Source: an uncultured Bacteroidales bacterium (GTDB lineage Bacteria; Bacteroidota; Bacteroidia; Bacteroidales; Bacteroidaceae). Taken from it: a stretch of 49,592 nt of DNA. The notes under the pieces are model-generated. The model was not told the DNA's origin. It saw only the letters and a list, made by a program, of their open reading frames with translations, and ran no database searches. Numbering within the stretch: the first letter of the stretch is position 1; every line of letters begins with the position of its first letter. Location of the stretch: the NCBI GenBank assembly GCA_945787885.1, contig CALZJF010000015.1, positions 1-49,592 of the forward strand, read 5' to 3'. A program made the translations under genes and the position numbers. Positions 2,367 through 48,828 of the stretch are shown here, piece after piece.

Positions 2367-2590
2367 CCCTCGTTTTGCTATCCGTCGCCCCCGGAAGTCG
2401 CCGTTTCGGACTGCCAGAGAGCCTGCCGCCGAGGCGGAAGCACTGAGCTTCGCGCTCCATCCGCAGTGCTTCTGCCTCGCAAGTGACCATTTCCTACCCT
2501 CAAAGTGACCACATATCCCCCTCAAAGTGACCATTTTCCACCCTCAATGTGACCACTCCTGAGCAAAAACTGCCGTCGGAAAGGGGAAAG
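2367..2590 (+). repeat. Composite phased-palindrome element, copy 1
   Basis: First of five related intergenic elements in the window. In order: a CCCTCGTTTTGCTATC block shared with the copy at 48.8 kb; a small hairpin around CCGTTTCGG (about 2396-2412); a strong 15-bp stem (2431-2445 with 2464-2478, one G-T wobble); four units of about 22 bp starting at 2480, 2501, 2523 and 2545, each beginning CAAgTGACC-like; and the tail CTGCCGTCGGAAAGG. Spacing of 21-22 bp is close to two helical turns. Function unknown; could be a protein-binding array, a structured RNA or a non-autonomous mobile element. Confidence 0.75.
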
Positions 2591-2601
2591 ACACTCCATA
2601 T

Positions 2602-2878
2602 AAGTAGGTAAGTATAGCAGGAATTATCATGGCTTGTATGTTTGAACGCTCTCTTTGACGCAGGCTTTAGCCTTGAAAACAGTCACATAGCCCCCAACAA
2701 TATAAGCTCGCTCCTTTATTTCAAGACAAAAATCTGCGTCACACTTTCCTTTCGCATAGATTTAGCCTTGAAAACAGTCACGGTTCACCTATATTTGGAC
2801 GCCATGCCCCTTTATTTCAAGACTAAGACCTGCATCCAAACAGTGCATTCAAATATAAAAACAATTTTCATTACCCAC
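2602..2878. repeat. MITE-like foldback repeat (GTAGGTAA ends), copy with duplicated core
   Basis: The left end (AAGTAGGTAAGTAT) and right end (TTTTCATTACCCACTT) form short imperfect terminal inverted repeats. Inside, the core TTTAGCCTTGAAAACAGTCAC occurs twice (near 2667 and 2762), each followed by CCTTTATTTCAAGAC. The same core and ends occur at 29.10-29.26 kb. It looks like a small non-autonomous element whose middle has duplicated. No coding capacity seen. Confidence 0.65.
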
Positions 2879-3025
2879 TTTGGGGAAAAATGTCTGAGAT
2901 ATTTTTGCAAAACAGAGAGGAGGCGAGTTGGAAAGCAAGCTGAACGCGCATATTTTGCATGGCAAACATGGCAAACCGCTGAGTTTTTACCCATTTTTTC
3001 AGAGAAAAACCAAAATATATAGTAC

Positions 3026-3061
3026 TTTGCTTTACACAGTACCTAACATTGCCTAATTTTG
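3026..3061 (+). promoter_or_regulatory. Possible promoter for the PadR-PspC operon
   Basis: TAATTTTG at 3054-3061 fits the Bacteroidetes -7 consensus TAnnTTTG. A TTTG at 3026-3029 is a little too far upstream (24 bp) and TTTA at 3031-3034 fits spacing better, so the -33 element is uncertain. Confidence 0.35.
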
Positions 3062-3164
3062 CAGCACACAACAAGCGTGAAACCGCAGAACTGTCATCGT
3101 CTGCACCGCGAACAGCAGACGACAGCATAGCATCCTCCCATCAAGAACCACAAACACAACGCCT

Positions 3165-3560
3165 ATGGCCAACATCGAAAACACGCGCTCACAGATGCGC
3201 AAGGGCATGCTGGAATATTGCATCCTGCTCCTGCTGCGCCACCGCCCGCTGTATGCCAATGACATCATCGCGCGCCTGAAAGAGGCAGAGATGATAGTGG
3301 TAGAAGGCACGCTCTACCCCTTGCTCAATCGTCTGAAAAAAGACGGATGGCTGAAATACGAATGGCAAGAAAGCACGCAGGGACCTCCCCGGAAATACTA
3401 TTCGCTCACTGCCGATGGCGAAGAAGCCCTCCGTCAGCTCGACGGCAGCTGGAACGAGCTTGCCACCACCGTGAGCATCCTGCAGCAAAACTATCCTGCC
3501 CTGCCCTACCAACCCTCAGACCTCACCCCCGAATCCAATCCCGAACCCTCTACCTTTTAA
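3165..3560 (+). CDS. PadR family transcriptional regulator
   Basis: A 131-residue winged-helix repressor-type protein. Residues about 8-95 carry the PadR pattern: RKGMLEYCILLLLRHRPLYA, then NDIIARLKEAEMIVVEGTLY, PLLNRLKKDGWLKYEW, GPPRKYYSLTADGEEAL. The C-terminus is a proline-rich tail rather than a long dimerisation domain, so this is the short PadR type. It ends 4 bp before the PspC-domain gene, so the two are co-transcribed; PadR plus PspC pairs are common in Bacteroidetes and suggest control of a cell-envelope response. The ligand is unknown. Start chosen at MANIENTRSQMRKGML, which gives the normal family N-terminus. Confidence 0.93.
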   Translation: MANIENTRSQMRKGMLEYCILLLLRHRPLYANDIIARLKEAEMIVVEGTLYPLLNRLKKDGWLKYEWQESTQGPPRKYYSLTADGEEALRQLDGSWNELATTVSILQQNYPALPYQPSDLTPESNPEPSTF

Positions 3561-3564
3561 GTCC

Positions 3565-5286
3565 ATGAAAAAGAACATTTCCATCAACATCTGCGGCACC
3601 GTCTATCACATAGACGAAGATGCCAGCCTGCTGCTCGAAAACTATCTGCAAAGCATGAAGAGCTATTTCGAGCGCGAGGAAGGCGACAACGAAATTTTTG
3701 ACGACATCGAACACCGTGTGGCAGAACTGCTGTGGGACTACAAGCAGCAGGGCATGGAGGCGGTGGATATAGATATGGTGAAGACCGTCATTGAGAAGAT
3801 AGGCAACCCGGCCGAAATAGCCAACGACGATGCTCCCCACGCTAATGCCGACGATGCTGCCTCTGCAGAAATGCCTGCTGACGATGCCTCTGGCCAACCC
3901 GGCGAAGAATCAGAAGAGCCGAGAGCACACTTCAAAAACCGCCGCATCTACCGTAATGTGCAAGACAAGATGCTGGGCGGCGTCTGCTCCGGACTGACCG
4001 AATATTTTGGATTGAGAGATACCTCGTTCCTGCGTTTGGCCATGCTGATTCTGACTCTCTTCCTGTTCTTCTGGTGGAACGGCTACCTTGTGGGGTGGGC
4101 CATACCTCTGCTTTATATGGCCATGTGGATCATCGTCCCTCCTGCCAGCACTCCTGAAGACAGGCTGCGCATGAAGGGCCGCAAAGTGAATCCGAACAGC
4201 CTGAAGGAGCAGATAGTAAGCGAATCGGAAGAGCAGGCACAGCAAAAGCTGCAAGCGCAACAAGCCTCGCAAGCGCAGCGACGCACGCAGTCGGGATGCC
4301 TCAAGCTCATCCTGACATTCCTGCTACTGATGCTCCTGCTATTTCTGCTATGCCTTTTATTGCCACTTTTCTTCCTGCTCTTCGCCTTTGCATTCGGGAT
4401 TTCTGTCATTACCAGCTTCATGGGCATCGAGATGCAGCAATATCTCTGCCACATCGATACCTCTATCCTCTTGACGGGTGCGGTGGCAGGCATCATCGTC
4501 GTCTTCATTCCCATCTGGTTTATCATCTCCTTCCTGCGCCACACCCGCAAGCCAACCTCGACGCTGAGCATCGTGAGTCTCATCGTGACATGGATCATAG
4601 CCCTTACCGTCTGCATCACCTCGACTGTGATGACCGGGCTGCAGGTGAGCAAAAACAGCCAGAAAATCCACGATGCCGAGTGTACGCGCAACGGCGTCAG
4701 GCTGGCGGCGTCCGGCGATTGGCGCGCACTCGATGAAATGGGGTGGACGCTGCATCGCCTGGAGAACGTGGAGCCTTACATCGTTGGTTATCCGCAATCG
4801 TACGCAGGCCTTTCACCCTACACGCTGAAAATTCTGCGCGACACTTCATCGCTCCCTATGACGTTCAGCCTCAGCCGTTCGGAATACTACGACGAGGGCT
4901 ACTACGTGCTGGAGGGCATCTGCCGCACGCAGGGCAAAGGCATCAAGGTGGAGGCATGCGCCGAAGCCAACCCGAACCGCAGGCTTGCCGCCATCGACCC
5001 CTCTGCGCAGGGCAAGGACCTGATGCAGCTGAGCTTGGAGGAGGCCGCAGCATTACCCATCCTGAATCATCCTGACAGCACGCAGTGGGCTGACTTCACG
5101 GACGACCAAACGCAGTGGGGATATTACGCCAGCGAGCCGTTCCACCACGATGGCGGCATGATTACCACCCGCATCAGCGCCGAGAAGGCATTTGCCAACG
5201 CCTTCTATCTCCGCCATTTGCAGTTGCGCCCGGTGGAAGCCAAGACGCTGAAACACTCGCCTGCTGCAAAAGGCAAGAAACTATAG
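3565..5286 (+). CDS. PspC domain-containing membrane protein
   Basis: 573 residues. The N-terminal part (1-85, MKKNISINICGTVYHIDEDA) is the extension typical of Bacteroidetes PspC proteins, followed by an acidic Ala/Asp-rich linker. The PspC domain spans about 126-193 (RRIYRNVQDKMLGGVCSGLT, then hydrophobic helices ending WIIVPP). More membrane helices lie near 245-285, 303-325 and 333-352, and a C-terminal soluble region of about 210 residues follows. PspC proteins are linked to envelope stress in proteobacteria; the role here is inferred. It is translated just downstream of padR (4-bp gap) and is presumably repressed by it. The Gln-rich segment at about 220-240 may be a flexible linker. Confidence 0.9.
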   Translation: MKKNISINICGTVYHIDEDASLLLENYLQSMKSYFEREEGDNEIFDDIEHRVAELLWDYKQQGMEAVDIDMVKTVIEKIGNPAEIANDDAPHANADDAASAEMPADDASGQPGEESEEPRAHFKNRRIYRNVQDKMLGGVCSGLTEYFGLRDTSFLRLAMLILTLFLFFWWNGYLVGWAIPLLYMAMWIIVPPASTPEDRLRMKGRKVNPNSLKEQIVSESEEQAQQKLQAQQASQAQRRTQSGCLKLILTFLLLMLLLFLLCLLLPLFFLLFAFAFGISVITSFMGIEMQQYLCHIDTSILLTGAVAGIIVVFIPIWFIISFLRHTRKPTSTLSIVSLIVTWIIALTVCITSTVMTGLQVSKNSQKIHDAECTRNGVRLAASGDWRALDEMGWTLHRLENVEPYIVGYPQSYAGLSPYTLKILRDTSSLPMTFSLSRSEYYDEGYYVLEGICRTQGKGIKVEACAEANPNRRLAAIDPSAQGKDLMQLSLEEAAALPILNHPDSTQWADFTDDQTQWGYYASEPFHHDGGMITTRISAEKAFANAFYLRHLQLRPVEAKTLKHSPAAKGKKL

Positions 5287-5359
5287 GCATAAGAAGATAA
5301 GCAGGGAAGGAAAATCAGGCTCTCACGCATTACCGAATTTCCATTCCCTGCATATTTAT

Positions 5360-5548
5360 GGTAGGTTCTATAAATTAGTTTTCTATGGAAGGCAGTGTTC
5401 ATGTTTTACTTGGATGCCTTCACGCCTCTCGCACCATATCTTTTTGTCTTTCATTCAGTCACGTAGCCCGCTACGCTCCCTCATGAAAACCAAAAACCTA
5501 CGGCACGATAGCCGCGAACACATCACAAGCTAATTTATAGAACCTACC
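5360..5548. repeat. MITE-like foldback element with perfect 19-bp terminal inverted repeats
   Basis: GGTAGGTTCTATAAATTAG at 5360-5378 is repeated exactly, inverted, at 5530-5548. The interior is itself an imperfect foldback centred on CACGTAGCCCGCTACG (about 5461), with arms of the TTTTTGTCTTTCAT type facing ATGAAAACCAAAAA. It has no room for a gene. A degenerate relative lies at 46.39-46.55 kb. It fills the gap between the PspC gene and the outer-membrane protein gene and may end transcription of the former. Confidence 0.8.
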
Positions 5549-5587
5549 TTATCTCTCCTCTCACCACTACTCAACCTTACATCCGCC

Positions 5588-8581: not shown

Positions 8582-8591
8582 GGTGGGGGGT

Positions 8592-8630
8592 GCAATCCGG
8601 TCAGACGGATTGCCATCCCGCTGGGGATGT
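8592..8630. terminator. Two short hairpins after the outer-membrane protein gene
   Basis: CAATCCG/CGGATTG with a 6-nt loop and CATCCC/GGGATG with a 3-4 nt loop follow each other within about 40 bp of the stop codon. No T-tract follows, so a role in termination or RNA stability is only possible. Confidence 0.35.
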
Positions 8631-8658
8631 GGGATTTCAGTCCATGCGGACACAGAAG

Positions 8659-8736
8659 AACGCCCCGAACGGGAGGGATTATAAACTACGCAGTCGGCTC
8701 ACTGCATAGTTCATAATCCCTCCCGTTCAGGGCGTT
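8659..8736. terminator. 36-bp near-perfect stem between convergent genes
   Basis: The arms 8659-8694 and 8701-8736 are inverted copies with 33 of 36 positions complementary and a 6-nt loop (CGGCTC). It lies between the convergent outer-membrane protein and hydrolase genes. There is no long T-run, so it may stop transcription in both directions or protect 3' ends. Confidence 0.6.
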
Positions 8737-8753
8737 GCCTCTTATTTCACAGC

Positions 8754-9928: not shown

Positions 9929-10025
9929 CCTTCAAAGATGGAGGATTGCACAGAGATGGAGTAAAGAAACGTGGAATCACGCACTCAAACAGCAACACTA
10001 TTCCCCTAAATCTAATCATAAAACA

Positions 10026-14799: not shown

Positions 14800-15018
14800 T
14801 GTGTTTAGTATTTATGATGGATAATATGTGTTTCCTTACCGTTTCAAATCCTTGTCCTGGAAATCATCAGGAATCAGCTTTTGCCTGCACCGCGCGTCAA
14901 TCCTTTCTGCAAGAAAAGTCTGTAAAGATTTTTGTTTGAAGCATCGCCTATAAGCTCATCCTTAGTCTAAGTAAGTCGAAAGAATTAGCTGGCGACAAGC
15001 GGCCAATGTGCAGCTGTG

Positions 15019-15166
15019 GCGAAAATTCTGGGTTTTGCAAGCCTTCTGCAGAGCTCCCGCTTCGCAAGTAATCATTTTCACCCCTCCATGTGATTGCTTT
15101 GACCCCATCAAATGGTCATTTTGCCCTTCAAAATGGTCACTTCAAGACGAAATGCACCGTAGAAGC
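15019..15166 (+). repeat. Composite phased-palindrome element, copy 2
   Basis: Contains the shared GCGAAAATTCTGGG start, the block TTCTGCAGAGCTCCCGCTTC, four units of 20-22 bp (starting near 15065) of the type CAAGTAATCATTTTCACCCC and CAAATGGTCATTTTGCCC, and the tail GACGAAATGCACCGTAG. The small 5' hairpin is less clear than in the other copies. Confidence 0.7.
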
Positions 15167-25999: not shown

Positions 26000-26148
26000 C
26001 GTCAGCCCCTACCTTCGATTCGGGGCTGCGTCGCACGCATTTTCAGATATATTGAGGCCGCAAAATTAAACTATTTTTTATTTTTTCGCCATACTATCTA
26101 AGAATTTTCGACGAACACAATGATTTTTCTGCCTAAAATGCTCAGAGA

Positions 26149-26258
26149 CACGGAGGTTTCTACGAAAAAACACGGAGGTTTCCACTCAAAAGCACGGAGG
26201 TTTCTGCTCAAAAGCACGGAGGTTTCTACTCAAAAGTACGGAGGTTTCTGCGAAAACA
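26149..26258 (+). repeat. Five 22-bp tandem repeats
   Basis: CACGGAGGTTTCTNCTCAAAAG-type units begin at 26149, 26171, 26193, 26215 and 26237, exactly 22 bp apart. The last runs into the composite element. Direct repeats without spacers, so not CRISPR. The 22-bp period equals that of the neighbouring element. Confidence 0.85.
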
Positions 26259-26424
26259 AGCCCAACTTTTGGGCAGCCAACAGCAGGGCTGCAAGCTGAC
26301 GCCAGAACTTCTGCCTCCCACGTAATCATTTTCGCCCCTCAAAATGTTCACTTTGACCCCAAAAGTCATCATTTTGACCCCCAGAAATGGCCACTTGCTG
26401 ACGAAAAGCAATGTAGGAAATCTG
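26250..26424 (+). repeat. Composite phased-palindrome element, copy 3
   Basis: Contains hairpin GCCCAACTTTTGGGC (about 26268-26282), a short GC-rich segment with AACTTCTGCCTCC, four 21-22 bp units from about 26320 (CACGTAATCATTTTCGCCCC, CAAAATGTTCACTTTGACCC, AAAAGTCATCATTTTGACCC, AGAAATGGCCACTTGCTG), and the tail GACGAAAAGCAATGTAGG. The units are the clearest examples of the CAAAATGnTCAnTTTG palindrome. Confidence 0.75.
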
Positions 26425-29099: not shown

Positions 29100-29262
29100 T
29101 GGTAGGTAATTATGATGGATTGTCTGTCGGAACGCTCTCCTTGGCGCAGGCTTTAGGCTTGAAAACAGTCACATAGCCGGCCATGCTCCTTTATTGCCAG
29201 ACTAAAGCCTGCCTTCAAACAGTGCATTCTAACATAAAACTAATTTTCATTACCTACTATAT
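29100..29262. repeat. MITE-like foldback repeat (GTAGGTAAT ends)
   Basis: GTAGGTAAT at 29102-29110 faces ATTACCTAC near 29250-29258. Inside, GCAGGCTTTAG (about 29146) pairs with CTAAAGCCTGC (about 29204) around a core CATAGCCGGCCATGCTCC. The whole insert can fold back on itself. It is the simpler relative of the copy at 2602-2878. Confidence 0.7.
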
Positions 29263-29325
29263 AACGTAAGTAAATGGAACATATTGTAAGCCAACGGCGG
29301 CTTTTCGCGCTTTTTAAGGCCATTT

Positions 29326-40447: not shown

Positions 40448-40639
40448 GCAGGAACAGTTTGTTTCGGTGGTTTCCTCCGCCTTCCGCCCTTCGCTCCCTG
40501 CCCACGGTGTGGCGGCAGCTACAGGCAAGCGGCGGCGCAGGAACGCCAGAATTTGCTAACTAAAGAAAGAGTTTTGGCTGCGAAGTTACCACTTTTCGAG
40601 GACAAACCGGGGAAAAGGCAAAAAAAATGGTCACTTTTC

Positions 40640-40670
40640 TTGCACAATCAGAAACTCTGCCGTACCTTTG
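40640..40670 (+). promoter_or_regulatory. tRNA-His promoter
   Basis: TTG at 40640-40642 and TACCTTTG at 40663-40670, 20 bp apart; the -7 box and flanking GCAG are the same as those of the small lipoprotein at 18.8 kb. About 32 bp separates it from the tRNA. Confidence 0.7.
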
Positions 40671-40702
40671 CAGTGCTTTTGAAAACAAAGCCTTCCAACA
40701 TG

Positions 40703-40776
40703 GTGCCCATAGTTCAGTTGGTTAGAGCGTCAGATTGTGGTTCTGAATGTCGTCGGTTCGAATCCGACTGGGCACC
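40703..40776 (+). tRNA. tRNA-His (GTG)
   Basis: Acceptor GTGCCCA pairs with TGGGCAC; D arm GTTCAGTTGGTTAGAGC; anticodon arm TCAGA-TTGTGGT-TCTGA reads GTG (His); T arm GTCGG-TTCGAAT-CCGAC. A G precedes the acceptor (40702) and faces C76, the extra G-1 needed for histidyl-tRNA identity. CCA is not encoded. Confidence 0.97.
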
Positions 40777-40782
40777 CTGAGC

Positions 40783-40824: not shown

Positions 40825-40953
40825 CCTTCCGAAAAGATGATTCTAATGCGCTGCCTCTGACGTACGCATAGCGTTTGACGGGGATGCCCTGTGTTCAACA
40901 CAAATCCGTATGCCCCATGCACCTCCAACTATACCACACAAATTATTTTGATG

Positions 40954-41210
40954 GAACACGAATGACACGAATAACACGAATTTTGCGGAAACGCTATTCA
41001 CATACATTCGGGATATTCGGAAAATTCGTGTTCAACATATACCACGCGAAAATTTGATGGAATACGAATGACACGAATAACACGAATTTTGCATTGACAT
41101 CCATACACATTCGGGAAATTCGTGTTATTCGTGTTCAATTTTTATCACGCAAAATATTAGGGTTGAACACGAATGACACGAATCGCACGAATTTTGCGGA
41201 AATTTCACAT
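40954..41210 (+). repeat. 106-bp tandem foldback array A
   Basis: Units start at 40954, 41060 and 41165 (spacing 106 and 105). Each opens with three CACGAAT-type boxes nine bases apart (GAACACGAATGACACGAAT) and later has the complementary ATTCGTG boxes, so every unit can fold into an imperfect hairpin. The third unit is incomplete. Same family as array B at the window end. Confidence 0.85.
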
Positions 41211-41254: not shown

Positions 41255-41470
41255 CAAATCCCCGAAAATCCCTGTCTTTGGGCAACGACTGAATGAGGCC
41301 GGCGACCGTTTCTGGGAGATTTCAGCTCGCAAGTGGTCACTTGGAGGCAAAAAGCAATCACTTGGAGACAAAAAATGACCACTTGGAGGCAAAAAGCAAT
41401 CACTTGGAGACCAAAATTGCCGTCGGAGAAGTGGGAGAATACAGGCGGAAACAGCGGAAAAAGGGACAAA
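41255..41470 (+). repeat. Composite phased-palindrome element, copy 4
   Basis: CCCGAAAATCCCTGTCTTTG matches copy 5 (CCAGAAAATCCCTGTTTCGG); then a short CTGAAT/ATTTCAG stem, CAGCTCGCAAGTGGTCACTT, and units of 21 bp (CAAAAAGCAATCACTTGGAG repeated with variants) up to about 41420, then tail TTGCCGTCGGAGAAG. Homology with copy 5 continues for about 50 bp beyond the tail. Confidence 0.75.
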
Positions 41471-41513
41471 AAGTGGGAGAATACAGGCGGGGAAGGCTGG
41501 GAGAGGGGGAGGA

Positions 41514-41748: not shown

Positions 41749-41761
41749 ATGAAGATTCTCC

Positions 41762-41830
41762 ACGCAGACGCGCCCCGCAGAGGCTGCACATGATCTACTT
41801 CATGTGCTCCTCTGCGGGGCGCGTCTGCGT
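41762..41830. terminator. Very long hairpin downstream of the histidine kinase
   Basis: ACGCAGACGCGCCCCGCAGA and two further bases pair perfectly with 41809-41830; GCACATGA/TCATGTGC continues the stem after a small bulge. Probably terminates the kinase operon and the remnant region. Confidence 0.65.
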
Positions 41831-41872
41831 TCACGGGATGCCCAGATGCAGAAATAATCAGGCTATATCATG

Positions 41873-42733
41873 TTATCTCTCCCGCTCTATGATGAAAGTG
41901 GCGTGGAAGCCTCGCAGCGGATGCGGGCGCAGTGTGAGCGTCATGCCTTGCGACAGCAACAATTGGCGCGAGAGCGACAGACCGATGCCGGAACCTGAGG
42001 CTTTCGTCGTGAAGAAGGGGATGAACATCTCTTGCGCCACATCGTGGGGAATGGCATGGCCATCGTTGCTGACGAAACACGCGCCGTCCTTCCACTCGAT
42101 GCCCATGGTACGGGCATTGGCCTCCACTGCGTTTTTCGTCAGATTGATGAACACCTGCCGCAGCAGCACGGCATCGGCTTTGAGCATCAACGCCGGGGGA
42201 ACGCTGATTTGCCATGCCAAGCCGGGATAGAGCGAGGCAACGCCTTGGCAAAAGTCAAGGAAGCCCACGTCCGCCAACTGCGGATCCGGCAGATGCGTCA
42301 GTTGGCGGCATCCTTCTGCGAAGGCGGCAAGGCCGAGCGTCGTGTCGTAGATGGCCTGTATGCCCTCTTCGTAGGGCGAACCTTTGATGGCAGCACTCTT
42401 CAGGTATGCCTGGCTGACGCTCTGAATGGGCGTGGCGGCATTCCGAATCTCATGGGTCAGCACGCGCACGAGGCGTTGCCAAGCCTCCGTCTCCCTCCGC
42501 TCCACGAGTTTCTGAATCTCCTGCCCCATATCGTTGAGGGCATCCTGCAGTGCCTTCTCTCCGAAGAGCAGTCCGCGTGTGGGGAGGCGGAAGGTGAAAT
42601 CGCGGTGGCGCACAGCCGCCCGCATCAGCATCGCCCGCCGCTGCAAGACGCGCTGATGATGATACATGGCGAAACTGACGATGATGATGAGAAGAAGAAG
42701 GAAAATCATGGAGAAAAGTACGGGCACACTCAT
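41873..42733 (-). CDS. Sensor histidine kinase
   Basis: 286 residues from MSVPVLFSMIFLLLLIIIVS; the longer ORF overlaps the response regulator gene. One membrane helix (about 7-24) at the N-terminus and no periplasmic loop, so the signal may be sensed inside the membrane or cytosol. The H-box is VLTHEIRNAATP (H94); the N-box is FINLTKNAVEAN; G-boxes FFTTKASGSGIGLSLS are clear. This NtrY-like arrangement is common in Bacteroidetes. It is encoded 35 bp after the response regulator. Confidence 0.92.
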   Translation of the reverse strand: MSVPVLFSMIFLLLLIIIVSFAMYHHQRVLQRRAMLMRAAVRHRDFTFRLPTRGLLFGEKALQDALNDMGQEIQKLVERRETEAWQRLVRVLTHEIRNAATPIQSVSQAYLKSAAIKGSPYEEGIQAIYDTTLGLAAFAEGCRQLTHLPDPQLADVGFLDFCQGVASLYPGLAWQISVPPALMLKADAVLLRQVFINLTKNAVEANARTMGIEWKDGACFVSNDGHAIPHDVAQEMFIPFFTTKASGSGIGLSLSRQLLLSQGMTLTLRPHPLRGFHATFIIERER

Positions 42734-42768
42734 CTTATATATATATGTGTATGAAGAGAAGAAAAGAA

Positions 42769-43296
42769 TCAGTCCGGATGATATTTTTTGTAGAGCGTCT
42801 GGCGCGTGATGCCCAGCAGTTCTGCCGCCTTGCTCATGTTGCCCTTGCATTTCCCCACCACTTTCTTCACGTGCTCCTCTTCCAATTGTGCGAGCGAGAC
42901 GACATCGTGGGCATTCTCCATCGCCTCCTTCACGGCGCGCAGGAGCTCATCGTTGTCCCAAGGCTTGGTGATGAAGTCGGCAGCACCGAGTTTCAGGCTT
43001 TTCACAGCCAACTTCACATCGGCATACGCCGTCATCAGCACGATGGGAATGGCGGGATAGCGACGATGAATGGCGGAGAGCCAGATGATGCCCTCCTGAC
43101 CCGAATTGACGCCCAGCGAGAAATTCATGTCCAGCAGTATGACATCCACCGCCTCCTGCTGCAGCGTGGGGAGAATGCGGTCTGGAGTCTGGAGCGTGAT
43201 GATGTGTTCGAAGGTGTCGCGCAGACAAATCTTCACCGCCGTCAGGATGGCGGGATGATCGTCAGCCACGAGCAGAGTGCCGTAATGTGTTTTCAT
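42769..43296 (-). CDS. Response regulator with Fis-type helix-turn-helix, no AAA+ domain
   Basis: 175 residues. REC domain with acidic D12-D13, phospho-acceptor D56 (LLDMNF) and K111 (TKPWD); the C-terminus (136-173) is a Fis/NtrC-type helix-turn-helix (MSKAAELLGITRQTLYKKYH). The sigma-54 AAA+ module of NtrC is absent, giving a RegA/ActR-like form. It is the first gene of the regulator-kinase pair. The start codon lies 5 nt from a minus-strand TAACTTTG box (complement of 43301-43308), so a leaderless mRNA is likely. It probably controls the divergent tolC-hlyD genes. Confidence 0.92.
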   Translation of the reverse strand: MKTHYGTLLVADDHPAILTAVKICLRDTFEHIITLQTPDRILPTLQQEAVDVILLDMNFSLGVNSGQEGIIWLSAIHRRYPAIPIVLMTAYADVKLAVKSLKLGAADFITKPWDNDELLRAVKEAMENAHDVVSLAQLEEEHVKKVVGKCKGNMSKAAELLGITRQTLYKKYHPD

Positions 43297-43300
43297 AGTG

Positions 43301-43308
43301 CAAAGTTA
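43301..43308 (-). promoter_or_regulatory. -7 box of the response regulator gene
   Basis: TAACTTTG on the minus strand ends 4 bp before the ATG (43294-43296). No -33 TTTG at the expected distance is visible. Confidence 0.55.
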
Positions 43309-43369
43309 CGCGATTTTGCCGACACGCCTGCCCTGCCCTACGGCTTTCTCTGCCCGAGGACAGGAAAGT

Positions 43370-43407
43370 GTATGATTTTCATACAGTAAGGCGTATGATT
43401 TTCATAC
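43370..43407. promoter_or_regulatory. Twin 15-bp palindromes between response regulator and tolC
   Basis: GTATGATTTTCATAC occurs exactly at 43370-43384 and 43393-43407 (23 bp apart, about two helical turns), each GTATGA-TTT-TCATAC. They lie about 60 to 90 bp upstream of the proposed tolC -7 box. Best candidates for binding sites of the Fis-type response regulator. Confidence 0.75.
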
Positions 43408-43458
43408 AGTCGGCAAGGCGCAAGGGGCAATATGGGGGGAGAAGCAGGGGGGAAGTGA

Positions 43459-43466
43459 TAACTTTG
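43459..43466 (+). promoter_or_regulatory. -7 box of tolC-hlyD
   Basis: TAACTTTG fits TAnnTTTG. The -33 region is GC/G-rich and has no TTTG, as expected for an activator-dependent promoter. Confidence 0.55.
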
Positions 43467-43501
43467 CGGCATCATTCACACTGCGCTCTCACCGTCGCAT
43501 A

Positions 43502-43560
43502 TAGCATGAAACACCGCCCTATATAGCATGAAACTCCATCCCCTCTCAGCATGAAACTCC
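43502..43560 (+). repeat. Three AGCATGAAAC repeats at the tolC start
   Basis: AGCATGAAACACC, AGCATGAAACTCC and AGCATGAAACTCC with ATGs at 43506, 43528 and 43551. The first two open mini-ORFs (MKHRPI and MKLHPLSA); the second ends TGA overlapping the third ATG (ATGA). The third ATG starts tolC. This looks like a tandem duplication of the start region and may allow translational coupling. Confidence 0.7.
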
Positions 43561-45014
43561 GCCCCCTACGATTCCTCTTCTCCCTCCTCATCCTGCCGCT
43601 CCCCGCTGCTGCAACCGACACCCTGACGCTGCGGCTGCAGGATGCCATCGCGCTGGCAGGCGAAGAGTCGGCAGAGGTGCAACGCGCCCGCAACACCTTT
43701 CTTGCCGCCTACTGGAACTACCGAAACTTCCGCGCCAACCGTCTGCCGAGCGTCACGCTGACGTCTTCGCCTTCCATCAACCGCGAGCTGAACAAAATCG
43801 TGCAGGCAGACGGCACGACGCGCTTCATCCGCCAGGACCAGAGCGACATCGACCTCGCGCTCCGCATTGAGCAGCCCGTGGGCTGGACGGGAGGAAAATT
43901 CCTCGTCAGGAGCAGCCTGAACCGCTACGACGAGTTCCGGCAGCACACCGTGGCATACGGCACGGCTCCCCTCATCATTGGCTATGAGCAGAATCTGCTC
44001 GGCTACAACGCGCTGAAGTGGGAGAAGCGCATCGAACCCCTGCGCTTCCGCGAGGCGAAGAAGCAGTATGCCGAAAGTCTGGAGGTCATCTCCGCCACCA
44101 CGTGTAGCCATTTCTTCGCCCTCGCTTCGGCACAGGCAGAGCTGGAGATGGCGCGGCAGAACTTTGCCTCTGCCGATACGCTCTACCGCATGGCGCAGGG
44201 ACGCTACGAGATTGGCACCGTCACGGAGAACGAGATGCTGCAACTGGAAATCAATCGGCTCAACGAGGAGACGAATGTCATGGAGGCTGAAATCACTCTG
44301 CGCGAGGCGGCGCAGGCCATACGTTCCTTCTTGGGGCTGGAGCCTGAGAGCGAACTTCGCCTCATCGTGCCTGACAGCGTGCCGCAGTTTCAGGTGCCGA
44401 TGGCGGCGGCGGTGGAGACGGCCTTGGCCAACAGCCCCGACCCAGAGTATTACCGCCGCACGCTCCGGGAGAGCGAGAGCCAACTGGCATATGCCAAGGC
44501 AGACCGCGGACTGCGGGCTGACCTCTACGTGCAGTTCGGACTTTCGCAGACGGGGCGCGATTTTGCCGCTGCCTATCGCCGTCCGCTCCACCAAGAGGCG
44601 GCAAGCATCACGCTCGCCATGCCTCTCCTCGACTGGGGGCGTGGGCGCGGCAAGGTCCGTCTGGCAAAGTCGCGGCTGGCCCTCGCGCAGGTGGAGGCGG
44701 AGCAGGGCATGAACGATTTTCGCCAGAATGTGGAGAAACTCGTGATGCAGTTTAACATGCAGGGACACAAGGTGAGGATTGCCGCACTGACGAACCAGCG
44801 TGCGGAGCAGCGGCACAACGTCGCCCGACGGCTCTACATCATGGGGCGCAGCAGTCTGCTCGACCTCAACGCTGCCATCAGCGAGAAGAACGCTGCACGC
44901 CGCAACCATATCTCTGCCATTCGCACGTACTGGACGCTCTACTTCACCCTGCGCAGCATGACTGCCTACGACTTTGAGCACCATGCGCCCATCACCGAAC
45001 AATTACCTCTCTAA
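43551..45014 (+). CDS. TolC family outer-membrane efflux protein
   Basis: 487 residues. Signal peptide MKLRPLRFLFSLLILPLPAA ends near AAA-T. Two outer-membrane-efflux halves follow (about 30-250 and 290-470) with long helical segments such as SHFFALASAQAELEMARQNF and a C-terminal half around DLYVQFGLSQTGRDFAAAYR. The protein forms a trimeric channel that spans the outer membrane and periplasm. It is followed 14 bp later by an HlyD-type adaptor; no inner-membrane transporter gene is present nearby. Confidence 0.92.
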   Translation: MKLRPLRFLFSLLILPLPAAATDTLTLRLQDAIALAGEESAEVQRARNTFLAAYWNYRNFRANRLPSVTLTSSPSINRELNKIVQADGTTRFIRQDQSDIDLALRIEQPVGWTGGKFLVRSSLNRYDEFRQHTVAYGTAPLIIGYEQNLLGYNALKWEKRIEPLRFREAKKQYAESLEVISATTCSHFFALASAQAELEMARQNFASADTLYRMAQGRYEIGTVTENEMLQLEINRLNEETNVMEAEITLREAAQAIRSFLGLEPESELRLIVPDSVPQFQVPMAAAVETALANSPDPEYYRRTLRESESQLAYAKADRGLRADLYVQFGLSQTGRDFAAAYRRPLHQEAASITLAMPLLDWGRGRGKVRLAKSRLALAQVEAEQGMNDFRQNVEKLVMQFNMQGHKVRIAALTNQRAEQRHNVARRLYIMGRSSLLDLNAAISEKNAARRNHISAIRTYWTLYFTLRSMTAYDFEHHAPITEQLPL

Positions 45015-45028
45015 CGGGAACATGACCT

Positions 45029-46279
45029 ATGGACATACAACTCAAACCTCAGCCGTGGTATCGCAAGCATTTCATCCACATCCTCACAGCCACCGCCTTC
45101 GCCGCCTGTGCGGTCTGGCTCATCTGGCTCGCCGTGAGTCCGCCCCTGCGGCAGCTTGATGCCGGGGCATGTCAGATAGCGGAGGCGGCGGAGATGCCGA
45201 TGCAGGAATATGTGGACGTGGAGGGCGTGGTGCAGCCCATCCAGACCGTGCGCCTCAATGCCTTGGAGGGCGGATTCGTGGAGCGCATCGTGGCAGAAGA
45301 GGGGGCGATGCTGCAAGCGGGCGACACCATCCTCGTCCTGAGCAATCCCGAACTGCTGCGCACCATCGGCGAAGAGCAGGCGGAATGGGAACGACTGCAA
45401 CTCAACTATCGCGAGCAGGAAATCGAAATGGAGCAGCGGAGCCTCACCCTCCGGCAGCAGGCCCTGGAAGCTGACCATCAGCTGACGGCCCTTGAGAAAA
45501 CGCTGAGGCAGAGCCGCGAGGAATGCCGCATGGGCATCAAGAGCAAGGCGGAACTTGAGGTGATGGAGGAGGAATATGCCTACCAGTGCAAACGGGCGGC
45601 ATTGCAACGGCAAAGCCTGCGCCACGATTCTGCCGTCACGCGGCTGAAACGCGAGGTGGTGGCAAATAGCCGCATGGCGTCTGAGCGTAAGATGTTGCGC
45701 TCGGAGAGCAGAATCGGCCGCCTCGTGGTGCGGGCGACGGTGGCGGGTCAGCTGAGCTTTCTCCACGTGGCTCTGGGGCAACAGGTGGGGGCAGGCGAGA
45801 GCTTGGGGGAAATCAAGGTGTTGTCGGACTATAAGGTTCATGCCTCGCTCACGGAATACTATATCGACCGCATCACGACGGGGCTGCCCGCCCACGTTTT
45901 GGAGGAGGATGAGCAGTTCCCCCTGCGCATCAGCAAGGTGGTGCCAGAGGTGAAGGACCGCACCTTCGACTGCGATTTGGTCTTCACGTCAGCTGCGCCT
46001 CCCCACATCCGCCTTGGCAAGAGCTACCGCGTGCAGATAGCTCTGGGAAGGCCTGAGAAAGCCCTCGTCATTCCGCGTGGCGACTTCCTCCAGCTGACTG
46101 GGGGCAGATGGATTTACCGCCTCGCCCCCGACGGACGGACGGCGCGAAAGGTGCAGATAGAGCTCGGACGCCAGAATCCGCGCCAATGCGAGGTGGTCTC
46201 GGGCCTTCAGCCGGGCGACCGCGTCATAGTCAGTGGCTACGAAAAGCTGGGCAAGGCGGAGGAACTGCGCATCGAGTAA
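45029..46279 (+). CDS. HlyD/MacA-type periplasmic adaptor
   Basis: 416 residues. One N-terminal membrane helix (HFIHILTATAFAACAVWLIW) precedes a periplasmic part with barrel-sandwich halves around VDVEGVVQPIQTVRLNALEG and VAGQLSFLHVALGQQVGAGE; a Glu/Gln-rich coiled coil lies between (about 130-215). The C-terminus PGDRVIVSGYEKLGKAEELR is typical. It would join a TolC channel to an inner-membrane ABC or other transporter. The partner transporter is missing from this locus. Confidence 0.92.
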   Translation: MDIQLKPQPWYRKHFIHILTATAFAACAVWLIWLAVSPPLRQLDAGACQIAEAAEMPMQEYVDVEGVVQPIQTVRLNALEGGFVERIVAEEGAMLQAGDTILVLSNPELLRTIGEEQAEWERLQLNYREQEIEMEQRSLTLRQQALEADHQLTALEKTLRQSREECRMGIKSKAELEVMEEEYAYQCKRAALQRQSLRHDSAVTRLKREVVANSRMASERKMLRSESRIGRLVVRATVAGQLSFLHVALGQQVGAGESLGEIKVLSDYKVHASLTEYYIDRITTGLPAHVLEEDEQFPLRISKVVPEVKDRTFDCDLVFTSAAPPHIRLGKSYRVQIALGRPEKALVIPRGDFLQLTGGRWIYRLAPDGRTARKVQIELGRQNPRQCEVVSGLQPGDRVIVSGYEKLGKAEELRIE

Positions 46280-46310
46280 CGGCAGGCTGGCTATATGACT
46301 TGAAAAGAGA

Positions 46311-46362
46311 GAGAGGAGGGGAGTGTGCCATACGTCATCGTATGGCACACTCCCCTCCTCTC
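46311..46362 (+). terminator. tolC-hlyD terminator (24-bp perfect stem)
   Basis: GAGAGGAGGGGAGTGTGCCA with four further bases (46311-46334) pairs perfectly with 46339-46362 around a TCAT loop; CTTTGCTTT follows. Confidence 0.8.
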
Positions 46363-46392
46363 TTTGCTTTAACTCCGTTAAAAGGGTTAATA

Positions 46393-46550
46393 ATTTTGGT
46401 TTAACGTTTTGTCATCTTTTGGCTTCTTTTCGGTTCAAATTGCAAGTCTCATCGGTCACGTAGCCCACTACGCTCCCTCTTCAACTTACTATTTGAACTT
46501 GAAAATAATCTCAAAATCTGACAAAGCTAATTGATAGAACCAACCTAAAC
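46393..46550. repeat. Degenerate foldback relative of the element at 5.4 kb
   Basis: Shares the CACGTAGCCCACTACGCTCC centre and an AGCTAATTGATAGAACCAACC end. Arms TTTGTCATCTTTTGGCTTC and GATTTTGAGATTATTTTC (minus strand) mirror each other. The left terminal repeat is eroded. Confidence 0.65.
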
Positions 46551-46576
46551 TGATTTTTATTACCTGCTTAGGTGTA

Positions 46577-48157
46577 TCAGTCTTTCGCCAATCGCTCTAT
46601 CTTGCAGGCGTGCTGCTTGGTCTCCTTGTCGTAGTTGATGCCCACGAGGAGCATTTCGCCTGCATATTCCGCTATCTTTGCAGGGTAAGCCTTTCGCTTT
46701 ATTTGGGCGATGGCAGTATCGGCGGTGTGGTTGAACTTCAATTCTATGATGAGCGCGGGCTTCCCGACATGGCGGCGCGGAATCATGACGAGGTCGGCGT
46801 AGCCCTTGCCCGTGGCATATTCGCGGTGGACAATGTATTCATTGCGCGCCCAAATGTAGGCGATGGTCAGCACGCAGGCGAGCGAGTTCTCATCGTTATA
46901 GGCGAGAATGCTCGTGTGTTCATCATGCGCACGGTCGATGGCCCGTGCCACGGCCTCTTCGTTGCCCGCGATGGTGGATTCCAACAGACACTGAGAGTTC
47001 TCCAATGTCTTTGCCAGTTGCCCCCAACTCGTGGCTGTCACTGCATTCTTCATTTCGTCCGCCACCTCCTTGTTCGGGATGTAGCATTTATTGGTCGTGC
47101 GGTCGTATGCCAAGTAGCCAAGATGAATCAGCACGGTGAGCACATCGTTCTTGCTGTTTATCACCCGCAGGTCGTTCTGAAAACTCGTCGTAATCACGGG
47201 GACGCTCTCTCCTGCGAGCATACGGATGACATCGTCTTTCAGCCCGTCGAAGTTCATCTCGATGTAAGTCCTCACCGAATCGTAGGCACTCGTCGTCGTC
47301 CAGTAGCTGCCATACTCTTCCATATTGATGGCCTTGATGACCGAATAGGGATTGAACATGTGCGATGCCTTGCCGATGCAATACCCATCATACCAGCTTT
47401 CCATCTCTGCCATGTCCGTCCCGTGTTTTTCGCACAGTGCCTCCACTTCTTCACGTGTGAATCCGAGCGTCGTGGCCATCTTGCCGGGACGAATCATCGT
47501 GTATTCGCAAAAATTGTTCAACGCCGACTCCGTATTATAGCGCTTGATGGGCAGAATGCCCGTGAGGTAGGCTCCTGCAAACACATCGCTTGAGCTGGCT
47601 CCCTTGAAGAGACGGCGCAGCAAGTCTATGTATGCCGTCGTGATATACTCGTCGGTCCCCATTTCTCGCAGTATGGCGTCCCACTCGTCTATGACCATGA
47701 TGAAATGCTCGCCCGTGGTTTCGACGATGCTGTAGAGCACATCCATCAGGTCGTCAGTGTCTTTCGCCCTTACCTCAGGAAATTCCGCCAAGACATCCGC
47801 CAGGACATCGCGCTGAATCACATCGACGATGTCACGCTCCCGCCTGTATTTCGTGGTAAACTCGGCTATGTCGAGGCTAATCACGTAGTATTTGTTCAGA
47901 TGCCTCTCAAACGACTCTGCCTTTTCCGCCTCCAAGCCCTTGAAGAGCTCTCTCGAATCGCAGGATTTGTCATAGTAGGCACACAGCATCTTCGCCGCCA
48001 TTGATTTGCCAAAGCGGCGGCAACGCGTCACGCAACTATAGCAGTTTTCCGTGTTGAGCGTGGCATTGACCACTGGTATCAGCGAAGTTTTGTCAATATA
48101 TTCCTGATTGACAATCTTCCTGAATGCTTTATTGCCTTTGTTGATATATCTGCCCAT
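46577..48157 (-). CDS. AAA-ATPase-like / PD-(D/E)XK nuclease-like protein (DUF1703 type)
   Basis: 526 residues. The N-terminal half is an AAA-ATPase-like domain with an atypical P-loop RCRRFGKSMAAKML (about 45-58) and a Walker B-like FIMVIDEWDAI (about 152). The C-terminal third has a PD-(D/E)XK-like core (YADLVMIPRR, PALIIELKFNH, with D and E-x-K). Proteins of this shape are very numerous in Bacteroidetes and their role is not established; a defence or mobile-element link is sometimes suspected. Monocistronic here, followed by and preceded by repeats. Confidence 0.92.
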   Translation of the reverse strand: MGRYINKGNKAFRKIVNQEYIDKTSLIPVVNATLNTENCYSCVTRCRRFGKSMAAKMLCAYYDKSCDSRELFKGLEAEKAESFERHLNKYYVISLDIAEFTTKYRRERDIVDVIQRDVLADVLAEFPEVRAKDTDDLMDVLYSIVETTGEHFIMVIDEWDAILREMGTDEYITTAYIDLLRRLFKGASSSDVFAGAYLTGILPIKRYNTESALNNFCEYTMIRPGKMATTLGFTREEVEALCEKHGTDMAEMESWYDGYCIGKASHMFNPYSVIKAINMEEYGSYWTTTSAYDSVRTYIEMNFDGLKDDVIRMLAGESVPVITTSFQNDLRVINSKNDVLTVLIHLGYLAYDRTTNKCYIPNKEVADEMKNAVTATSWGQLAKTLENSQCLLESTIAGNEEAVARAIDRAHDEHTSILAYNDENSLACVLTIAYIWARNEYIVHREYATGKGYADLVMIPRRHVGKPALIIELKFNHTADTAIAQIKRKAYPAKIAEYAGEMLLVGINYDKETKQHACKIERLAKD

Positions 48158-48592
48158 GATGCTTTGTTATACGGTCGAAGGAGAGGTAAGCCTGCCACTC
48201 GGATTGCAAAAATACGAAATTGTCGGCAAACAAGCTGTGTTTTCACAAAAAATCAGTGTAACGCCCTTGTCTGTGCCTGAGTCTTCGTCGTGCCACCAGT
48301 GGTCGCGGGGCGGGGTGCTGCGGTTTGTGTTGCATCGGCTGCCGTCTGTTTTCGGGGCGCATTGCCGCGCCTGTCTCCCTCGTGTGTCTCGGCACAAAAA
48401 TAGCACAACGTCTCTTAAATTCCCCTAAATTTTCAGAAAAGAAATCTTGTCAGGATTGCCTCCGCGAATAGAGGAAATCGTGGTCAAAAAGCCTGTTTTC
48501 AGGGGGCGCAGCAGGCGTTTTGAGGTGAAGGCACGGAGCTTTTGCCCCATTTTCAGGCAAAATTCGATTGTTTTTGGCTGAAACGCGGGCAT

Positions 48593-48828
48593 TCTTGCCC
48601 TGTTTTTCGCGTTTTTCGAGGGCGATTTTCAGGTTTTTCGACAGCATTTTCCGCCTCAAAGTGATTACTTTGAGGGGTAAAAGAGGTCAGTTGGGGGGTC
48701 AGAAGTGGCCAGTTTTGAGGCGGAAGCTCTGCAGAACGGCTGCGAAGCTCAGTATTTTCACCTCGACCGCACAGGCGTCTGTTGCCCGAAACAGGGATTT
48801 TCTGGGGCATCAGATAGCAAAACGAGGG
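48593..48828 (-). repeat. Composite phased-palindrome element, copy 5
   Basis: Reads on the minus strand. CCCTCGTTTTGCTATC, AGAAAATCCCTGTTTCGG, an ACTGAGCTTCGC block and CTGCAGAGCTTCCGCCTC match copy 1 in order; three units follow (about 21-24 bp, ending CAAAGTAATCACTTTGAGG, almost a perfect palindrome), then the tail GAAAATGCTGTCGAAAAAC. Confidence 0.75.

Follow-up and report, generated by a model that had tools for sequence, protein, structure and literature searches.

Evenly spaced arrays of phased palindromic cores as candidate chromosomal binding sites in an uncultured Bacteroidales bacterium

The ends of Tn7 and Mu hold several 22-bp transposase sites, which are terminal and non-palindromic. 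REP/BIME elements are recognized by a GTAG/CGTC-tagged palindrome and a RAYT gene, and a DNA uptake sequence is a short single motif that occurs about once per kb. Chromosomal parS sites have the consensus TGTTTCACGTGAAACA, and the scattered centromere-like sites mentioned below together with sopC and parC are presumably those of phage N15. In the available portions of the respective texts, Mu cis-immunity is described as peaking around 5 kb and falling off between 5 and 25 kb (PMC7350765), and BrickBuilt is described as having 19 copies in Porphyromonas gingivalis ATCC 33277 with ends that resemble IS5-family terminal repeats (PMC4596501). DNA uptake sequences of Haemophilus and Neisseria are genome-wide motifs with significantly even spacing, which Karlin et al., as quoted there, took to indicate a function in replication, repair, or compaction (PMC1939737). 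Centromere-like arrays include sopC, parC, and the scattered sites for which Ravin and Lane 1999 is the cited source (PMC5016525). Here, we describe arrays of palindromic cores that were detected in a window of 49,592 nucleotides (the whole stretch of DNA that was analyzed) from an uncultured Bacteroidales bacterium, and we evaluate their distribution in its genome and in those of its relatives.

Copies in the window and across the genome

A first-pass annotation of the window had claimed five copies of a composite intergenic element with an architecture that is more conserved than its sequence. Screening of the window with a profile (R1, filters off) recovered the five copies in the claimed order and on the claimed strands (E 8.6e-42 to 6.2e-16; Table 1) and supported this description, although copy 2 starts near 14988 and copy 5 extends over about 48384-49027, which departs from the annotation. 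Each copy generally runs from a leader through palindromic cores (about AAGTGRYCACTT), usually 3-5 in number and placed 21-22 bp apart, to a tail; in copy 4, the spacer between cores is GGAGRCAAAA instead of CGCCCCTCAAA. Because the five copies are among the 28 sequences from which R1 was built, the independent check is provided by a search with copy 1 alone and by the genome-wide results. The initial search with copy 1 found copy 5 (E 1.5e-20), while copies 2-4 were absent among the 40 of 112 candidates that were scored. Up to E 5, the remaining R1 matches in the window (33) comprised reverse-strand shadows of the five copies, one weak match (40574-40677; 14.5 bits, E 4.5e-4), and scraps with E of 0.04 or worse. 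At Rfam gathering scores, the only match in the window was a tRNA (40703-40776), with no family at the copies.

Table 1. Positions and parts of the element copies and adjoining features in the window
Feature	Coordinates	Strand	R1 match	Parts or description
HSP70 (dnaK-like) gene	67-1986	-		Flanks copy 1
Copy 1	2367-2590	+	2389-2580	Leader 2367-2479; four cores within 2481-2556, ~22 bp apart; tail to 2590
ORF	3165-3560	+		Flanks copy 1
ORF	3565-5286	+		Flanks copy 1; PspC domain
Copy 2	14988-15166	+	14988-15164	Leader; four cores from ~15066; tail GACGAAATGCACCGTAG
Second-type 22-bp array	26139-26250	+		Unit CACGGAGGTTTCTACTCAAAAG; matches model built from G077 arrays; adjoins copy 3
Copy 3	26250-26424	+	26252-26418	Leader; four cores from ~26320; tail
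Copy 4	41255-41470	+	41260-41427	Short leader; four cores within 41331-41416, 21 bp apart; tail
Copy 5	about 48384-49027	-	48637-48806 (core profile match)	Full-length form, ~650 bp; three cores

The annotation had considered this a five-copy element and had named a lack of further copies in the genome as an outcome against its claim. Instead, 76 copies were identified at an R1 threshold of 36 bits in the 1.10 Mb sampled (41% of the 2.7 Mb draft genome), 54 of them on nine contigs (747.8 kb) and 22 in another 355.6 kb, which by extrapolation corresponds to ~190 arrays in the whole genome. Matches below 36 bits were excluded before counting (C1:1183, C1:38632, and C3:52851 on the first nine contigs; C2:348, C2:113108, C6:91312, and C7:69829 on the replicate contigs), and two contigs were read in part (the first 100000 of 100409 bases of C4 and the first 80000 of 89423 of C7). 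In a reversed-sequence decoy of the first nine contigs (747.8 kb), the best E was only 1.7.

The copies diverge from one another by a mean of 38% (mean pairwise identity 62%), and conservation is uneven by position, with a per-site identity variance of 0.030 versus a binomial 0.0032 (73 copies). Neutral decay of one master copy was rejected because per-site conservation is too uneven, noting that subfamilies also raise this variance. Core-to-core distances under 40 bp were 22 bp in 133 of 176 cases and 21 bp in 33; since 21-22 bp is about two helical turns, the repeated sites lie on the same side of the helix. Left-right covariation within the cores was weak at best (six pairs): the central pair exceeded shuffles (157 vs. 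141.5; 16/1000 shuffles) and the 5-8 pair fell below them, as would follow if the genome-wide avoidance of GATC extended to TGATCA. Exact TGATCA was nearly absent from the cores (3/287).

The arrays are mostly intergenic and indifferent to gene direction, with flanking-gene settings near background among the copies with both flanks (tandem 37/73, convergent 19/73, divergent 17/73). A role as promoter or terminator, or one tied to the gene strand, was rejected because no clear orientation bias was detected (22 same and 15 opposite among tandem settings). For 33 of 76 copies, the array strand agreed with the GC skew, and neighboring arrays shared a strand in 38 of 63 pairs. Five copies have a common long form of ~650 bp in which the units occupy about positions 300-400 of 646 in the model, that is, mid-element. 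The 250-bp flanks resembled those of another copy in 53 of 76 copies, a number that may partly reflect leader or long-form sequence outside partial profile matches; in this comparison, flanks of this species start at the profile match and those of the sister species discussed below (G077) start 25 bp outside it.

Spacing of the arrays along the chromosome

The first-pass annotation had put the copies in the window about 7-15 kb apart; even spacing on the scale of the genome, which it had not noted, was found here. Array-to-array spacing (n = 63) had a mean of 13.4 kb and a coefficient of variation (CV) of 0.354, with a minimum of 5178 bp and a maximum of 25052 bp. No spacing was below 4.5 kb (0/63 vs. 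16-18 expected) or above 26 kb (0/63 vs. 7-8 expected), and under both a uniform and a length-weighted intergenic null, none of 5000 draws was as extreme for the CV, the minimum, or the maximum. The fresh contigs alone (C2, C6, the first 80 kb of C7, and C9) gave a CV of 0.333, with 0/5000 draws as extreme for CV and minimum, and 53/5000 and 14/5000 for the maximum under the two nulls. Two control repeat seeds on the same contigs (89 and 106 places) look random, with CVs of 0.86 and 0.85 and 25 of 76 and 33 of 93 spacings below 4.5 kb. The three matches excluded from the first nine contigs (12.5-21.7 bits) would sit ~4.9, 4.4, and 4.6 kb from their neighbors, and the four from the replicate contigs ~9.0-23.7 kb.

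Arrays in related genomes

Relatives were chosen as the nearest (G025), the next by one protein (G077), a single-contig genome (G004), and two contiguous assemblies (G061 and G017); G033, G080, and G081 were left out at merely 0.5-5.6 kb each. Across 60 relatives (36 of the same genus), R1 matched only G025, with two partial copies, and a rerun on 58 genomes of the genus, including this one, had the same outcome. With a laxer filter, two borderline matches were detected among 35 relatives (G028, E 0.002; G012, E 0.007).

In the sister species G077, arrays likewise form an even grid (one per ~11 kb), built from a different palindrome (AAAGTNCSGNACTTT) repeated at 22 bp. Among its 47 arrays, 163 of 172 core distances under 40 bp were 22 bp and 27 arrays had four cores. 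Flanks were unrelated between arrays (similarity in 2/47) and spacers differed too, which argues that these arrays are unlike transposed copies of a common element. In a held-out 331 kb, 30 arrays had a CV of 0.426 and a minimum spacing of 4343 bp (0/5000 vs. the uniform null). Eight places of the G077 type were identified in the genome studied here; two abut own-type copies and two lie near mid-gap between own-type copies, among the own-type matches listed. Slots appear to be shared between the two species within 400 bp (7/18 vs. 7/64, p = 0.011) and less so within 800 bp (7/18 vs. 12/64, p = 0.074); the comparison is only suggestive. The four sub-threshold replicate matches were added back for it, and one of them (C7:69829) accounts for two of the seven close G077 arrays.

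G061 and G017 each have their own palindrome at a 21-bp distance (135 pattern matches vs. 0, and 120 vs. 2, in reversed-pattern controls), with no spacing below 5 kb among the matches listed. For these genomes, 44 of 50 and 37 of 50 listed places were used after within-array pairs were merged and single-place contigs dropped, two G017 places (C6:111250 and C10:22271) were kept though they resemble chance matches, and random draws assumed that contigs end 5 kb after the last place. No such grid was detected in 200 kb of G004, which has one 22-bp array (35587), or in G025, where 23-bp arrays at six places in 370 kb look like an ordinary MITE and were not counted as a grid. The absence of a grid in G004 and the presence of only two partial copies in G025 indicate that not every species needs the feature. 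In four aligned syntenic gaps, G025 is empty at the sites where this genome carries a copy as additional DNA, so that presence and absence differ between related genomes; at a fifth tight gap (C10:58955), left out of the alignment, G025 is the longer (2005 vs. 633 bp). The G025 flanks at the compared sites are too diverged for a comparison of target site duplications.

Readings of the arrays and comparison with known systems

Collectively, evenness far beyond chance and a grid of other sequence in a sister species point to a system that marks or organizes the chromosome, and the arrays are best read as candidate binding sites, not genes or RNAs. Of the three possibilities that the first-pass annotation had raised (a structured RNA, a binding-site array, or a non-autonomous element), the binding-site array fits best given the tandem, phased palindromic cores, with a binder that is itself putative. 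The best reading, which we consider about as likely as not, is that these are chromosome-wide cooperative binding arrays of a putative, fast-diverging DNA-binding system involved in chromosome structure or partition. A species-specific dimeric protein would occupy each array cooperatively, and the arrays, acting at the DNA level, would anchor the chromosome, dividing or tethering it through looping, condensin, or partition contacts. Every stretch of ~25 kb would need one array, and a second within ~5 kb would be useless, harmful, or prevented, which would keep the grid even. Site and protein would drift together, which would explain why the palindrome differs per species, and in this species the arrays would also be carried within a longer repeat, itself dispersed, which probably contributed to their spread.

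The main rival, which we consider somewhat unlikely, is a non-autonomous MITE-like element whose transposition machinery avoids inserting close to a resident copy (target immunity), as in Mu and Tn7; the four 21-22 bp units would then be transposase sites, and immunity over ~5-25 kb would yield the even spacing. The empty G025 sites, the recurring flanks, and the common long form favor it, and such an element may explain how the longer copies of this species spread; several 22-bp sites are also a likeness to Mu and Tn7 ends. The range of Mu cis-immunity, in the available text, matches the exclusion zone here (PMC7350765). However, terminal inverted repeats were not detected in the five full-length copies, taken at approximate ends (best 6-10 nt, reached by 41-92 of 100 shuffles), or in 40 core copies (5.33 vs. 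4.90). The units lie mid-way in the long form and not at both ends, unlike those of Mu and Tn7, and the G077 arrays do not resemble element copies and yet are nearly as even. A functionless BrickBuilt-type MITE with a trapped minisatellite, its evenness arising incidentally as closely placed repeats are selected against through recombinational deletion, is quite improbable. At 62%, identity is low for repeat copies to recombine, the control seeds are not even, and the missing spacings above 26 kb would be left unexplained; an element without function predicts random spacing, against which both the nulls and the control seeds speak. The outline nevertheless matches, since tandem 22-23 nt units lie between a leader and a tail, and the P. 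gingivalis element, also from the Bacteroidales, is described in the available text as dispersed and intergenic, with a leader, a variable number of 23-nt units, and a tail (PMC4596501). Unlike its 19 copies, 76 are present in 41% of this genome, and the IS5-like terminal repeats kept by intact BrickBuilt copies were not found here; in the main text of that paper, as available, neither 'spacing' nor 'palindrom' occurs (PMC4596501). A structured RNA, or an mRNA leader or terminator element, is highly improbable and was rejected: RNAalifold predicted zero consensus pairs among 28 copies and the main leader stem lacks covariation (555/827 vs. 558.9 in shuffles). The lack of an Rfam family at the copies and of a fixed gene orientation also speaks against it, while a possible leader hairpin and a slightly over-paired alternative stem (309/461 vs. 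292.7 ± 4.4; 0/500 shuffles) speak for it.

Members of the Bacteroidales rank among the most common bacteria of the gut, and to our knowledge it is poorly known how chromosomes are divided and held in bacteria without MatP- or MukBEF-type systems. If the arrays are indeed an evenly spaced grid of multi-site binding arrays, domain boundaries or anchors would be legible from sequence, making domain size and position directly testable, and the species-specific palindromes would exemplify a binding system that changes in step with hundreds of its sites. Should target immunity have produced the grid instead, the array positions would preserve a natural record of immunity across the whole genome. 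In the available open-licence literature, we found no description of such an array grid or of target immunity that produces one.

Canonical parS was rejected as the array since the core sequences differ from its consensus; with up to two mismatches, three parS-like sites were identified in this genome and one in the reversed control. As described in the available texts, REP/BIME elements are likewise high-copy extragenic palindromic repeats, and they differ from the arrays observed here, in which cores stand in tandem 21-22 bp apart and which are evenly spaced (PMC2817692, PMC3733652). DNA uptake sequences share a genome-wide motif and significant even spacing with the arrays, but they are single short motifs, many intragenic and stated to be non-palindromic, with no helically phased arrays described in the available text (PMC1939737), whereas one phased array occurs here per ~13 kb. 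The sopC and parC centromere arrays, in the available text, comprise inverted repeats within longer iterons, often in tandem, with a sequence that varies by system and a centromere-binding protein that binds them (PMC5016525); here, several inverted repeats in tandem were likewise found and the binder is putative. Those arrays are found at a single locus or a few loci of plasmids or of a prophage, whereas ~190 extrapolated arrays are spread evenly over this chromosome. It is an unlikely but distinctive prospect that such a set of centromere-like, phased, cooperatively bound arrays partitions or tethers the whole chromosome, its specificity replaced between species while the grid is kept, which would amount to a bacterial version of the holocentric chromosome.

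Copy Number and Anatomy of the Arrays

The five copies of a dispersed composite element that the first-pass annotation had described in the window were read individually and then aligned. A sequence-only profile built from 28 such own-type copies, these five included (R1), recovered all five with filters off, and the rest of its matches in the window were reverse-strand shadows and weak scraps. In the draft genome that contains the window as its entire contig C15 (own genome; 2.70 Mb, 96 contigs, 91% completeness), copy 1 as the sole query, with 40 of 112 candidates scored, returned at least 48 matches at E ≤ 10, and R1, with 150 of 1,042 candidates scored, returned at least 158. Nine contigs, covered completely or almost so (747,838 bases), yielded 54 own-type copies on profile searching, with a best E of 1.7 for the reversed-sequence decoy, and 22 more were identified in 355,600 bases of four contigs that took no part in building the profile. 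By extrapolation, these 76 copies in 1.10 Mb sampled (13 contigs) correspond to ~190 copies genome-wide.

Own-type copies comprise a leader of ~100 bp with CTGAGCTTCGC...GCAGAGCTTCTGCCTC, then usually three to five units, each with one palindromic core near AARTGRYCAYTT, and finally a tail following the pattern GACGAAAATGCNGTCGGA. Judged by core spacing, four cores in a row are present in 33 of the 76 copies, three in 14, two in 17, five in seven, and one in five. Of 176 core-to-core distances below 40 bp, 133 measure 22 bp and 33 measure 21 bp. A long form of ~650 bp is seen in five copies, including window copy 5, and several more are intermediate, while in window copy 4 the inter-core spacer deviates and the core and phase are retained. 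Mean pairwise identity among 73 copies is 0.617, and the variance of per-site identity is nine times that of a uniform rate (0.030 vs. 0.0032), an unevenness to which subfamilies may contribute.

Only three of 287 own units contain the exact palindrome TGATCA; its place is taken by the one-step variants TGGTCA (68), TCATCA (32), TGACCA (31), TAATCA (25), and TGATTA (21) and by the two-step variant TGGCCA (34). Since GATC is avoided across the sampled own genome (observed/expected of 0.16 in 747.8 kb), the scarcity of TGATCA in the cores seems to reflect a host influence acting on a palindromic site. Left-right covariation within the cores is weak at best: of six pairs, one exceeds the shuffled controls (16 of 1,000) and one falls below them. 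CTAG is also strongly avoided in the own genome (0.03), and both tetranucleotides are strongly avoided in 370 kb of the nearest relative, G025 (CTAG 0.05, GATC 0.23).

Placement Along the Chromosome

Own-type copies are evenly spaced, a property first noticed in the genome-wide list of R1 matches and tested afterward. The first nine contigs provided 45 spacings with a mean of 12,988 bp, a coefficient of variation (CV) of 0.362, a minimum of 5,178 bp, and a maximum of 25,052 bp. Four fresh contigs (C2, C6, the first 80 kb of C7, and C9) were new to the profile, yet some of their positions had already been visible in the earlier list; their 18 spacings had a CV of 0.333, a minimum of 7,081 bp, and a maximum of 23,871 bp. 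None of 5,000 draws reached this CV or minimum, and the maximum was reached in 53 uniform and 14 intergenic draws. Over all 13 contigs, whose ends cut spacings, the 63 spacings had a mean of 13,406 bp and a CV of 0.354, with none below 4.5 kb (15.8–17.9 expected) and none above 26 kb (7.4–7.7 expected). The observed CV, minimum, and maximum were each reached in 0 of 5,000 draws under both uniform and length-weighted intergenic nulls. Three sub-threshold matches (12.5–21.7 bits) would lie 4.4–4.9 kb from their neighbors, and four others are compatible with the chromosome-wide grid.

Two control repeat seeds taken from the window (f2 and f3), subjected to identical clustering on identical contigs, yielded 89 and 106 places with CVs of 0.86 and 0.85 and with 25 and 33 spacings below 4.5 kb. 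This uneven placement indicates that even spacing is not a general property of repeats in the own genome. With genes called by a simple ORF rule, the gene context of own-type copies resembled the background (tandem in 37 of 73, convergent in 19, divergent in 17), and 19 of 76 copies overlapped a naive ORF, mostly a short one. Copy strand did not track GC skew (33 agree, 43 disagree).

Phased Arrays in Related Genomes

Of 60 relatives (36 genus members and 24 from other families of the order), 59 gave no R1 match at E ≤ 0.001, the sole exception being G025 with two partial copies that comprise units and tail; extending the search to 58 genus genomes, including the own genome, left this outcome unchanged. 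We then sought arrays without relying on sequence similarity between species, using the lag spectrum of intergenic self-similarity. In the own genome, this spectrum peaked at 21 bp (17 arrays) and 22 bp (27), with double periods at 42 bp (8) and 44 bp (11) and 0–5 arrays at other lags. The sister species G077 peaked at 22 bp (40 arrays; 27 at lag 44, 0–4 at other lags). In 80 kb apiece, G061 and G017 each showed a single array at lag 21, G025 had two at lag 22 and five at lag 23, and G004 had none at lags 21–23 in 200 kb.

G077 arrays have cores of AAAGTNCSGNACTTT with a period of 22 bp. In the first 17 arrays, this period accounts for 59 of 62 core distances below 30 bp, and in all 47 arrays identified it accounts for 163 of 172 below 40 bp. 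Four cores are present in 27 of the 47, and spacers vary between arrays. A model built from the 17 arrays and run on 331 kb of G077 outside the building set identified 30 arrays with a mean spacing of 11,082 bp, a CV of 0.426, a minimum of 4,343 bp, and a maximum of 24,150 bp, an evenness reached in 0 of 5,000 uniform draws; the best reversed-sequence decoy scored 11.4 bits vs. 23.2 for the weakest accepted array. This spacing, together with the distinct cores, indicates that G077 has an even grid of a different palindrome.

For G061 and G017, patterns were derived from 80 kb of each genome. The pair TCAGCTGA-N13-TCAGCTGA (≤2 mismatches) occurs 135 times in G061 vs. 0 for the reversed pattern, and TCCATGGA-N13-TCCATGGA (≤3 mismatches) occurs 120 times in G017 vs. 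2 reversed. Among 58 genomes, the G061 pattern is specific: G031 has eight matches (reversed control, 2), mostly of a TCGGCTGA variant, and the other 56 have 0–3. Among the places listed, the 44 in G061 gave 38 spacings (minimum 6,022 bp, CV 0.72) and the 37 in G017 gave 26 (minimum 5,557 bp, CV 0.78); none was below 5 kb (5.4 and 5.1 expected), as in 10 and 14 of 5,000 random draws, respectively, and these thinned lists bear on the exclusion zone rather than the upper end of spacing. Dispersed phased palindrome arrays are present in three of the five relatives that were read over long stretches (G025, G077, G004, G061, and G017), and a grid was not seen in G004 or G025.

The G077 model also had 13 matches at eight places in the own genome. 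When G077 arrays were mapped by flanking gene, seven of 18 had an own array no more than 400 bp away, compared to seven of 64 control gaps (p = 0.011), although two of these seven map to one sub-threshold own array; at 800 bp, the difference was not significant (p = 0.074). We regard sharing of slots between the two species as suggestive. Separately, ACGTGAGTTCGAT, found near two copies of a MITE-like family in G025, resembles the terminal repeat of MITE239 as given in PMC4596501.

Locations of G077-type arrays in the own genome and of other repeats (contig handles are specific to each genome)
Genome	Location	Feature	Remarks
Own	Window 26139-26250	G077-type array	22-bp period; adjoins copy 3
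Own	C47	G077-type place	Adjoins own-type copy
Own	C54	G077-type place	~330 bp from own-type copy
Own	C11, C16	G077-type places	Near midpoints of 18- and 14.4-kb intervals flanked by own-type copies, among matches listed
Own	C40, C56, C71	G077-type places	Little informative
Own	C10	G077-type weak match	13.6 kb from nearest own-type copy
Own	Window 48384-49027	Own-type copy 5	Long form
Own	Window 43498-43565	Further 22-bp tandem array, CATATAGCATGAAACTCCGCCC	3 units; unmatched in R1 and G077 model searches
Own	Window 2622-2879, 5339-5551, 29108-29279	f2/f3 dispersed repeats	~200 bp; possibly a single family
Own	Window 49000-49529	106-bp tandem repeats	4.3 copies, 96% match; 9-bp ACACGAAT-like units
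Own	Window 40932-41202	Diverged set, ~105-bp period	Related to 106-bp tandem repeats
Own	Window 8659-8736, 46303-46370, 41762-41830	Near-perfect long inverted repeats	Arms 22-36 nt, 4-25 nt apart
G031	C27:673-722, C41:10025, C72:3445, C97:3329, C103:4504, C149:138	21-bp pairs, core TCGGCTGA	One base off G061 core; possible fifth species variant
G025	C2 32476, C3 9778, C4 11646, C5 8217, C7 10614, C8 17602	MITE-like family, three 23-bp units	Around palindrome AAGGTTAATAACCTT; L104-L116

Proposed Role, Origin, and Known Systems

The arrays are phased and evenly placed, their cores are species-specific, and their sequence is constrained to a degree that differs from site to site. A dimeric protein that binds cooperatively to a DNA scaffold would be expected to leave such phasing, palindromic cores, and even placement regardless of gene direction, as well as the differing spacers of G077. 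We infer that a putative protein of this kind would bind the arrays cooperatively and would act in chromosome structure or partition.

The leading alternative is that the arrays belong to a mobile element subject to target immunity. For Mu, PMC7350765 gives an immunity range of 5–25 kb, with which the exclusion zone around own copies agrees, and many own copies have shared flanks (260 similar pairs involving 53 of 76 copies). Comparison with G025, picked as nearest via one fast-evolving protein (75% identity), points the same way: both flanks were present in its stretches for nine of 54 copies by a loose rule and five tightly, and the element was absent from G025 in all four syntenic gaps aligned, such that these four own copies are insertions relative to G025. 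The fifth tight gap is longer in G025 and fell outside this alignment. However, a mobile element is a poor fit to G077, where neither spacer nor flank is common to the arrays (one similar pair, two of 47 arrays) and where the arrays lack the appearance of repeat copies. A mixed history is possible, wherein an element spread the own arrays and selection or immunity spaced them.

We know of no system that combines phased palindrome arrays with even chromosome-wide spacing, and the open-licence literature on these themes offered nothing nearer than BrickBuilt, uptake sequences, and plasmid centromeres. A search of the own genome for parS identified none at fewer than two mismatches and three at two mismatches (reversed control, 1); G004 has one exact parS site. 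BrickBuilt (PMC4596501) shares the outline of own-type copies but has IS5-like terminal repeats, for which own-type copies tested negative, and 19 copies; "spacing" and "palindrom" have no occurrences in its main text. Uptake sequences, themselves single motifs, are described as evenly spaced in PMC1939737. Plasmid centromeres, according to PMC5016525, typically comprise tandem inverted repeats to which a centromere-binding protein binds, and some are scattered across a genome.
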